Assembly: GCA_004298015.1 (NCBI GenBank)
Contig: SCSE01000047.1
Location: 1 to 64,000, forward strand
DNA: 64,000 bases
From: Rhodanobacter sp.
GTDB lineage: Bacteria; Pseudomonadota; Gammaproteobacteria; Xanthomonadales; Rhodanobacteraceae
Direction of reading: 5' to 3'
Shown here piece by piece: positions 15,388 to 18,514 of the stretch. Every line of letters starts with the position of its first letter. Positions within the stretch are counted from its first letter, which is position 1. Position numbers and translations under genes: made by a program. A model generated the notes under the pieces. The model saw only the letters and a program-made list of their open reading frames with translations. It had not been told where the DNA came from and ran no database searches.

Positions 15388-16488
15388 ATGACCGAGAAGA
15401 CCGTACTCAACGCAGCCCATCGCGCGCTTGGCGCGCGGATGGTCGACTTCGGTGGCTGGGACATGCCGATCAACTACGGCTCGCAGATCGAGGAGCACCA
15501 TGCGGTGCGTCGCGATGCCGGCATGTTCGACGTTTCACACATGACCGTGCTCGACCTGCACGGCCCGCGCACGCGCGAATTCCTGCGCCATGTGCTGGCT
15601 AACAGCGTCGACAAGCTGAAGGTGGTGGGCAAGGCGTTGTACGCGTGCATGCTGAACGAGCAGGGCGGCGTGATCGATGACCTGATCGTGTATTTCTTTG
15701 ACGAGGCGCACTTCCGCCTGGTGGTGAATGCGGCAACCCGGGCCAAGGACCTGGCCTGGATCGAGCGCCAGGCGAAGGCGTTTGGCGTCGAGGTGAGGGA
15801 GCGTCCCGACTTCGCGATGATCGCCGTCCAGGGACCGACGGCGCGCGGCAAGGTGCTCGGCCTGCTGCATGAGGTGGACCGTCCGCGGATCGAAAAGCTC
15901 GGCAAGTTCGCCGCGGCCGCGGCGCAGGGCCCGCACGGCATGCCGTTGTTCGTCGCCCGCACCGGCTACACCGGCGAAGACGGCTTCGAGATTCTGCTGC
16001 CGAACGAGCACGCGGTGCCGTTATGGGAGGCGTTGCTCGCCGCTGCGGTCGTACCCTGCGGTCTGGGTGCGCGCGACACACTTCGACTGGAGGCCGGCAT
16101 GAATCTGTACGGCCAGGACATGGACGAGACCGTATCGCCGTGGGAAGCCAACCTGGGCTGGACGGTCGCGTTGGACGAAGGGCGCGACTTCATCGGTCGC
16201 GCCGCGCTGGAAAAACAGAAGGCCGCCGGCGTCCAGCGCACGATGATCGGCGTGGTGCTGGACGACAAGGGCGTGCTGCGGCATGGACAAAAAGTGCTCA
16301 CCGCGAACGGTGAGGGCGAAATCCTGTCCGGCAGTTTTTCGCCGACGCTGAACAAGGCGATCGGTTTCGCGCGGGTTCCGGCCGGTGCCGCCGGCGACAT
16401 TCGCGTGGATATCCGCGCTCGCGAGCTGCCGCTGCGTCAGGTCAAGTACCCATTCGTGCGCGACGGCAAGCCCTGCGAAGGTATCTGA
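15388..16488 (+). CDS. gcvT: Glycine cleavage system T protein (aminomethyltransferase)
   Basis: Transfers the methylene group from the aminomethyl-lipoyl arm of H protein to tetrahydrofolate, releasing ammonia. 366 aa from ATG 15388 ([31 protein letters not shown]). Family motifs include [11 protein letters not shown], the FEILLP / [16 protein letters not shown] region and the [12 protein letters not shown] segment. Length is normal. gcvH follows 137 nt later on the same strand; gcvP is not in the window. Confidence 0.96.
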
Positions 16489-16625: not shown

Positions 16626-17021
16626 ATGAGCGAGATTCCCGGCGATCTTAAATTTCTCAAATCCCACGAATGGGCGCGTGTCGAAGACGACGGCCTGATT
16701 CGGGTGGGTATCTCTGACCACGCACAGGCCCAGCTTGGCGACCTGGTCTATGTCGAGCTGCCCGAGGTCGGGGCCAGCATCCATACCGGTCACGGCGTGG
16801 CGGTCGTCGAATCGGTGAAGGCCGCCTCCGACATCTACTCGCCGGTATCCGGCGAAATCGTCGAGGTCAACGAGTCGCTGAGTGACAAGCCCGAAACCAT
16901 CAACGAAGACGCCTATGGCGAGGGCTGGATCTTCCTGGTGCGTGCAAGTGATCGCTCCGAACTGGACGAACTGCTCGACGTGAATGCCTATGAAGAGCTG
17001 GTCGATAGCGAAGATCACTGA
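16626..17021 (+). CDS. gcvH: Glycine cleavage system H protein
   Basis: Lipoyl carrier protein of the glycine cleavage system, 131 aa. The lipoylated lysine lies in [12 protein letters not shown], followed by the canonical [15 protein letters not shown]. The TGA stop codon forms the first bases of a repeated hairpin element (TGAGAGGCCGGGGAAAAATC) that also supplies the stops of mtgA, tetR and the 2OG dioxygenase in this window. gcvP is not adjacent. Confidence 0.96.
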
Positions 17022-17366: not shown

Positions 17367-17812
17367 TCGCGGTGAGACGAATTTACCGACCGCGAATCGC
17401 CCGTCACGCGTGGGCGCAGGATGATTCAGCGGAGCGGAAGATCACGTTCATGCCGGCAGCACAGTGAACATCCCGGCATTTGGCGATAGAAATTTTTCGC
17501 GATTTTCATCCGTATCCGTGATCGTTTCGGTAGCCTCGCGTTCATCGAGGTCACGCCGTGGGGGTGTTCCAGATCGCGATGGTGCCTGTATATGTGGCAC
17601 GGTGATTGATCGACGCTTTTCAAGCGAACATTCTTCCGAAACCATTACCCCGAGCGGGTTCTGGTATGACATGTTGTTTTTCATCTAAATAACGTTTGGA
17701 CGTATAGGCATCCATATCAAGATTGCGCCGTACGATAAAATCGCCTTGAATCGATGGAATAAAGGTGCCGACCAAGGTGGGTGAAGTGCGCTTGAATGGT
17801 GGCTAAAATCAA

Positions 17813-17841
17813 TTGACAGCCGAAATTTTCAGGGATAGCTT
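17813..17841 (+). promoter_or_regulatory. Candidate sigma-70 promoter of the metJ-like gene
   Basis: A perfect -35 (TTGACA, 17813-17818) is followed after 17 bp by a weak -10 (TAGCTT, 17836-17841), giving a start about 20 nt before the ATG. The ~400 nt upstream (17.45-17.85 kb) are AT-richer than the surroundings and hold no supported gene. A Met-box-like stretch (TTGGACGTATAGGCATCC near 17696) is too degenerate to call. Confidence 0.42.
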
Positions 17842-17869: not shown

Positions 17870-18514
17870 ATGGCAACAGCAAAATTCATCAAGCCTTATG
17901 TCGAGCACGGCGAAAAGGCGAATGCAGTAAGAAAGATCACCGTGTCCATTCCGCTGCATGTACTGCGGCGACTTTCCGATTTGCGCACGCACCGTCAAGT
18001 GAACAATCTAAGGCACGCCACCAACAGCGACTTGTTGGTTGAAGCGTTCCTGCACGCTTTTACTGGGCAACCACTGCCAACTGATGAGGAGCTGAGACGA
18101 ACCATGGCCACTGCCAAGAAACCTGCTGCAAAGAAACCGGCCGCCAAGAAGGCCGCCAAGAAATCCACCGCCAAGAAGGTTGCCGCCAAGAAGCCGGTAG
18201 CCAGGAAGCCAGCCGCGAAGAAAGCCGCGGTGAAGAAGTCGGCTGCGAAAAAGAAGCCGGCTGTAAAGAAGGCATCAGCCAGAAAGGCTGCGGTCAAGAA
18301 AGTCGCGACCAAGAAGGTCGCCGCCAAGAAGGTTGCCACCAAGAAGCCGGTGGCGAAGAAAGCAGCCGCCAAGAAGCCGGCCGCTGCCAAGAAGGCCGCC
18401 GTGAAGAAGGTGGCCGTGAAGAAAGTTGCCGTGAAAAAGACTGCCAGGAAGCCGGCAGTCAAGAAGGCTGCATCGGCCCGGGTGGGGAAAGCCACCCGGA
18501 CCTCCAAAAAGTAA
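17870..18514 (+). CDS. metJ: MetJ-type repressor fused to a histone-H1-like Lys/Ala tail
   Basis: 214 aa from ATG 17870, with GGGGA upstream. Residues 5-77 match methionine repressor MetJ closely: KPYVEHGEK, the DNA-contacting strand RKITVSIP (21-28), and [15 protein letters not shown] and [13 protein letters not shown], which in E. coli form the dimer core and SAM-binding surface. E. coli MetJ continues about 27 residues more; here that part is replaced at M79 by a 136-residue tail of AAKKP/AVKKV repeats with no acidic residue, like bacterial histone-H1/AlgP-type proteins. M79 is an ATG preceded by GAGGAG (about 11 nt), so a free tail might also be made. Expected role is SAM-dependent repression of methionine genes with added non-specific DNA binding; the latter is inferred. 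The fusion is clear in one uninterrupted frame. Confidence 0.88.

Follow-up and report, generated by a model that had tools for sequence, protein, structure and literature searches.

The locus described here raises the question of why a methionine repressor should continue, within a single reading frame, into a histone H1-like tail, and whether that tail is also made as a protein of its own. It lies in a window of 64,000 nucleotides from Rhodanobacter sp. (assembly GCA_004298015.1, contig SCSE01000047.1, positions 1 to 64,000 of the forward strand), which is the whole stretch of DNA that was analysed. The reading preferred here, to which we give a probability of about 0.8 from comparison of sequences, is that the gene, termed metJ-H1, has two products, a MetJ protein with a long tail and a free H1-like protein, both encoded in one frame. 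The features of the locus are collected in Table 1. For comparison of the locus across families gcvH was used as the anchor; just upstream of it, ending at 16488, lies what we take to be gcvT, and the gene downstream of the fusion presumably encodes a TonB-like protein.

Table 1. Features of the metJ-H1 locus, with positions in the window
Feature	Position	Strand	Remarks
gcvH, syntenic neighbour and locus anchor	16626..17021	+	identified by sequence
MetJ-box-like tandem operator upstream of metJ, TGGACGTATAGGCATCCA	17697..17714	+	3 mismatches to TGGACGTCTAKACGTCCA
Sigma-70-type promoter of the metJ-H1 gene, TTGACA-N17-TAGCTT	17813..17841	+	conserved, aligned
metJ-H1 fusion ORF, full-length product	17870..18514	+	214 aa; both parts joined in frame in each of the 125 distinct genes of the family
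MetJ domain, residues 1-78, ribbon-helix-helix repressor with short C terminus	17870..18103	+	
42-nt block in the MetJ coding sequence with frozen synonymous positions; putative initiation region for the internal ORF	18056..18097	+	
Box A of the initiation element, CTGGGC	18063..18068	+	conserved in f1 coding sequence and in f2/f3 leaders
Internal Shine-Dalgarno sequence, GAGGAG, codons 73-74	18086..18091	+	anti-SD pairing, codon conservation
H1-like ORF from the internal ATG (M79), 136 aa; proposed free product and fusion tail	18104..18514	+	

The open reading frame list and the translation give the fusion as one uninterrupted frame from ATG to TAA. The initial annotation, which had recognised MetJ and an H1-like tail in this frame, was right in both parts, as all three profiles matched score above their cut-offs. 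Residues 5-86 of the whole protein match the Pfam MetJ family (PF01340, 120 bits against a cut-off of 25) and also the NCBIfam MetJ equivalog (NF003622, 124.7 bits against a cut-off of 110), while the MetJ piece alone scores 121 and 126 bits, respectively. An alignment count over residues 4-77 gives 52 of 74 residues identical to E. coli MetJ, for which structures have been solved. Thus, the domain is a true MetJ, though at 70% identity the earlier statement that residues 5-77 follow the E. coli protein at nearly every residue goes slightly too far. The base-contacting beta-ribbon is kept as VRKITVSIP, in which the lysine and threonine are invariant in the alignment. Residues 79-214 form a Lys/Ala/Val/Pro repeat of 136 residues, and the annotated lack of acidic residues is exact, with 0 Asp or Glu in the translation. 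The Pfam HC2 histone H1-like family (PF07382, cut-off 40) matches residues 81-206 with 55 bits and the tail alone with 56.5 bits, a score driven by composition, as expected of low-complexity sequence, and one that lies below the stricter NCBIfam cut-offs. The tail resembles the HC2/AlgP type of H1-like protein in the composition of its Lys/Ala/Pro/Val repeats. A genome search found no other metJ copy, so the fusion gene is the sole metJ. A second H1-like repeat is present in the same genome at G000:C19:30429-30806, in an open frame of 329 aa. It was also observed that in the window's genus and some other genera of the family the usual MetJ motif DERTRRQ is replaced by DLRTHRQ, DLRTYRQ or DLRTERQ, the window's genus having DLRTH in place of DERTR. 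The altered motif lies at window positions 17981-17995 (residues 38-42), and these two linked changes, placed in a normally conserved segment, might touch corepressor binding.

Scanning 399 genomes of the order places the fusion in a wider context. metJ is present in all listed genomes of Rhodanobacteraceae, the window's family (f1), and in part of families f9, f12 and f8; in the same scan it was not found in the large sister family f2 or in the sister family f3. In a regulon survey that covered four genomes from this order, SamR was reported and MetJ was not (PMC4239095), and the published view of MetJ as missing from the order is revised by the family-wide occurrence of metJ in f1. The basic tail follows in frame in every one of the 125 distinct full-length f1 genes extending across the junction, and hence the fusion is not due to chance; the tail ranges from about 40 to 310 residues in length. 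On the two points that the initial annotation proposed to check, the fusion is thus conserved and its tail varies in length within the family. A stop codon between the two parts was looked for in close relatives and not found within the family, and in the sister families the tail occurs alone, without MetJ. As no member of the family has lost the frame across the junction, the fusion itself appears to be selected. The C-terminal segment of MetJ after residue 80 is absent and the H1-like tail occupies its place. The earlier description of a helix replaced by the tail is correct as to the missing segment, but a simple swap is not what the relatives indicate: tail-less MetJ proteins of f9 (Marinicella) and f12 already end at 79-97 residues. 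Owing to this, the tail was probably added to a MetJ that was short beforehand, and the segment after residue 80 is probably not a defining part of the MetJ family.

The next consideration is whether the MetJ half still acts as a repressor. When 200 genomes were scanned for MetJ-box-like operators, matches were obtained in all 34 genomes of f1, reaching as many as 18 on a strand where the reversed control gave 0-2, whereas f2, which has no metJ, gave about background and f12, with its short MetJ, gave some matches. In the genome of the window the sites adjoin metX, aspartokinase, cysG/cysB and an amino-acid permease, which answers the suggestion to look for Met boxes upstream of met genes here, and in relatives they adjoin genes which, by sequence recognition, we take to be metX, cysJ and aspartokinase. 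The presence of operators throughout f1 and about background in a family without metJ supports the view that the MetJ half is still a repressor, and judged by its sequence it looks functional. It is thus similar to the E. coli-type MetJ in its ribbon and in having tandem operators that resemble AGACGTCT at met and cys genes, and unlike it in ending at about residue 78 and continuing as an H1-like tail. In a proteome of a Rhodanobacter strain published in 2025, MetJ is increased while methionine enzymes are decreased (PMC12146267). Just past the end of the window, at C28:64773-64788, a tandem MetJ box with two mismatches (AGATGTTTAGACGTCT), preceded by a third box, stands before metX (homoserine O-succinyltransferase, NF006449) and beside a cysteine-synthase-like gene.

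Upstream of metJ itself, most f1 genomes checked carry a tandem box near TGGACGTCTATACGTCCA, as seen by phylogenetic footprinting; the copy in the window is degenerate, and a third degenerate MetJ-like box precedes it at 17690-17697. The promoter of the gene is found as TTGACA-N17-TAGcTT upstream of the internal ATG in 129/129 f1 genes, at a distance of 289-299 nt. In the window about 100 bp separate the operator from this conserved promoter downstream of it, which makes autoregulation there uncertain. In many f1 genomes, for example L131 and L034, a terminator-like GC hairpin followed by T's is situated between operator and promoter, an arrangement that suggests a short MetJ-controlled transcript or a leader upstream of metJ.

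What the tail might contribute to the fusion protein is suggested by AlgP, in which an N-terminal domain is joined to an H1-like tail and which binds DNA (PMC9239181); by this analogy and by its composition, the tail here would bind DNA, presumably in a non-specific manner. The N-terminal partner in the present case differs from those of HC2/AlgP proteins in being a SAM-type repressor, and the tail differs in having its own conserved internal start. The proposal of the initial annotation, that such a tail tethers MetJ to DNA and so replaces cooperative binding on arrays of operators, would be in keeping with the DNA binding of AlgP tails and with the missing C-terminal segment of this MetJ. 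Against it, the operators in f1 are still pairs of boxes, sometimes with three or four, giving no sign that cooperativity has been replaced, and the tail-less MetJ of f9 and f12 is likewise short at its C terminus; we therefore regard tethering as quite unlikely. The other proposal of that annotation, in which the fused protein would couple the SAM level to compaction of the nucleoid, has no support in the form given there.

A different role for the tail is indicated by the nucleotide sequence at the end of the MetJ coding region. Although codons 5-62 of metJ vary freely, codons 63-76 read GCT TTT ACT GGG CAA CCA CTG CCA ACT GAY GAG GAG CTN AGA in nearly all f1 genes. AGA, ACT, GCT and CCA are minor codons in the family, yet they are conserved within this block; AGA, with a background use of 2.6%, is invariant. 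When changes are counted on a tree from which the block was left out, third positions show 2.4 per codon within it versus 16.8 before it, and 2.9 versus 19.2 when only amino acids with four-fold sites are counted, a difference reached in 0 of 100000 permutations. At residue 68 proline is replaced by Gln, Lys, Ser or Thr in some genes while the third base remains A, which argues for selection on the nucleotides and not on the protein alone. The synonymous freeze was not seen in the tail-less MetJ relatives of f9 and f12.

The frozen block has the properties of a translation initiation region. The internal ATG is kept in 124/125 f1 genes although the tail beyond M79 varies, and the GAG GAG of codons 73 and 74 is present in 124 and 125 of the 125 genes, respectively, as compared with a background use of 51%. 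Pairing with the anti-Shine-Dalgarno sequence has a median of -9.1 kcal/mol at the internal start, the corresponding values being -5.7 for the primary start and -2.3 for control codons; at the internal start it is stronger than in synonymous recodings (median p 0.025), and the internal start tends to be less structured than such recodings (median p 0.09). Both the start codon and the Shine-Dalgarno sequence are thus conserved beyond the protein constraint, the mark by which internal in-frame starts are recognised. The single exception, L043, provides a natural test: ATG is changed to GTG, nine of the thirteen frozen codons are altered, pairing is down to -3.5 and folding is -15.2, so that the internal ATG, the frozen codons, the Shine-Dalgarno sequence and the open structure are lost together. 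Since the initiation region is more conserved in its nucleotides than the protein alone would demand, the free tail too appears to be selected. This conserved start, which had not entered the initial annotation, suggests that the tail is also a separate product. Some details speak against two products. In most f1 genes AGGAG ends 12 nt before the ATG, which exceeds the ideal spacing, and box A stands about 40 nt upstream of the ATG, farther than a normal ribosome footprint needs. Apart from these details, one genome, L032 (G393), has a premature TGA at MetJ codon 42 with the frozen block, the internal ATG and the tail intact; either the stop is an error of sequencing or MetJ was lost naturally here and the H1-like product spared.

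Further evidence comes from the sister families. At the same locus, after gcvT-gcvH, f2 has a stand-alone H1-like gene (84-187 aa, MATKKAAKKPA...), whose leader shows, in order, ACTGGGC, a variable spacer, CACTGACGAGGAG, a short spacer and ATGGC. Among 329 genomes, the pattern CTGGGC..TGAYGAGGAG..ATGGC was confined to f1 and f2, with a single occurrence in each of 152 genomes (0 hits for the reversed control), and variants of it are present in most of the tested f2 genomes that do not have the exact pattern. In two f2 genomes of genus g84, a K-rich ORF was not found within 1.5 kb of gcvH. From CTGGGC to ATG the spacing in f2 is 35-47 nt and covers all phases, whereas in f1 the distance from box A to ATG measures 41 nt in 116 genes and 38 nt in 8 genes and is always in frame, from which we infer that the joined protein is also under selection. 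The three f3 genomes, which have no metJ, show the same gcvTH/H1-like arrangement with a variant of the element; their leader retains ACTGGGCAAC...ACGAGGAGCTAAGAC, including metJ codons after the Shine-Dalgarno sequence, and an in-frame relic, NEELRPIMATAKK, corresponds to a 13-residue MetJ segment. The metJ promoter is retained at 33/33 f2 loci, 313-468 nt before the ATG (reversed control 0), and at 3/3 f3 loci, about 280 nt before it. Upstream of the block, f3 shows no significant nucleotide similarity to metJ codons 1-62, so that the loss of MetJ is deduced from the flanks, namely the promoter, the 3' end and the length. Comparison of the leaders thus indicates that in f2 and f3 the metJ promoter and the 3' end of metJ survive around a decayed, non-coding leader. 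In some f2 leaders (e.g., L230, L231, L234) ACTGGGC is closely preceded by GC-rich inverted repeats with a terminal TTT, possibly a regulatory RNA, for which no Rfam match above threshold was obtained.

The best reading of these comparisons, and the simplest history, is that an ancestral metJ-H1 gene already had an internal start, and that f2 and f3 lost MetJ while keeping the H1-like gene. The persistence of this gene from the old promoter and the internal start is most easily explained if that start already functioned. The data also suggest that the large family f2 has, in the H1-like gene behind gcvTH, a former metJ gene. The opposite order of events, in which the H1-like gene and its leader came first and metJ was inserted into the leader later, would fit the wide distribution of MetJ-free H1-like genes in the order. 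We consider it very improbable, as the f2/f3 leader matches the nucleotides for an 11-residue segment of MetJ in general, and f3 retains CTAAGAC and an in-frame NEELR, a match that an insertion would not create.

The same families bear on two other explanations of the frozen block. One is that only the fusion protein is made, its tail strengthening DNA binding by MetJ, with the frozen codons and the ATG being a relic or having some other role at the nucleotide level. The strictly kept frame in f1 and the fairly constant amino-acid sequence of the junction agree with this, but a relic would not hold invariant rare codons over some two dozen genera, the same element fronts a stand-alone gene in f2 and f3, and in L043 the element is lost along with the ATG; a fusion protein alone is a decidedly unlikely explanation. 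The other takes the block to be chiefly an internal promoter, or a site in the transcript bound by a protein or small RNA, with the free tail made from a short mRNA of its own. It accounts for the conservation around box A, which extends to about 48 nt upstream of the ATG and beyond what a Shine-Dalgarno region needs, and for the occurrence of ATACTGG upstream of some other H1-like genes of the family. We nevertheless find it unlikely, because the region holds neither a sigma-70 promoter match nor an Rfam match above threshold, no synonymous conservation is seen upstream of codon 63, where a -35 element would be expected, and f2 and f3 retain the distant former metJ promoter instead. Other candidates for the block were rejected. 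A structured RNA was discarded since positions 18035-18140 fold no better than shuffles (z +0.94) and match no Rfam family above threshold; an internal sigma-70 promoter was sought and none found; and a repeated element was dismissed because the 66-nt block has no second copy in the genome. Judged by eye, a sigma-54 promoter, a hammerhead-like core (CTGANGA...GAA), a boxA and an antisense promoter had wrong spacing or key bases or were unconserved.

According to the dual-product reading, ribosomes starting at 17870 would make a SAM-dependent MetJ repressor with a long basic H1-like DNA-binding tail, while those starting at the internal ATG at 18104, with the Shine-Dalgarno sequence written in the last MetJ codons, would make the H1-like protein alone. 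Judged by their lengths, the two products should be of about 22 and 14 kDa. As MetJ-type operators stand upstream of this one gene, the SAM level would probably set the amounts of both products. In the sister families the MetJ frame would have decayed into a non-coding leader, with the former metJ promoter, the initiation element and the H1-like gene surviving. A broader proposal is put forward tentatively, as possible and not as probable: that a SAM-controlled gene yields a tailed repressor and a free H1-like nucleoid protein, such that the methionine/SAM state sets the supply of nucleoid protein, and that in the sister families the repressor frame is now a long non-coding leader governing the H1-like gene.

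The individual components, MetJ, H1-like tails and internal starts, are already known separately. Structured DNA-binding domains with a basic H1-like C-terminal tail occur in HupB-type HU and CarD-type fusions; the DNA-binding domain here is a different one, and we know of no internal initiation element in those fusions. In infB and sctQ/spaO, bacterial in-frame internal starts give two proteins sharing a C terminus from one ORF. Unlike those cases, the long form here is a repressor and the short form is H1-like, and the sister families keep the short form only. N-terminal proteoforms are surveyed in PMC11005335. Within the open-access literature, no description of a MetJ-H1 fusion, or of a repressor frame holding an H1-like start, was found. 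The coding DNA of a transcription factor apparently carries, family-wide, the translation start of an unrelated second protein, and the related families would represent a preserved stage after loss of the repressor. The system is well suited for testing dual coding, the effect of an H1-like tail on a sequence-specific repressor, and the link between SAM and nucleoid protein. As a minor observation, L066, L068, L083 and L084, all of Rhodanobacteraceae, have a second H1-like gene (MATTRKSAAKK...) with an upstream ATACTGG and the Shine-Dalgarno sequence CGCAGGAG, which perhaps follows the same box A logic.
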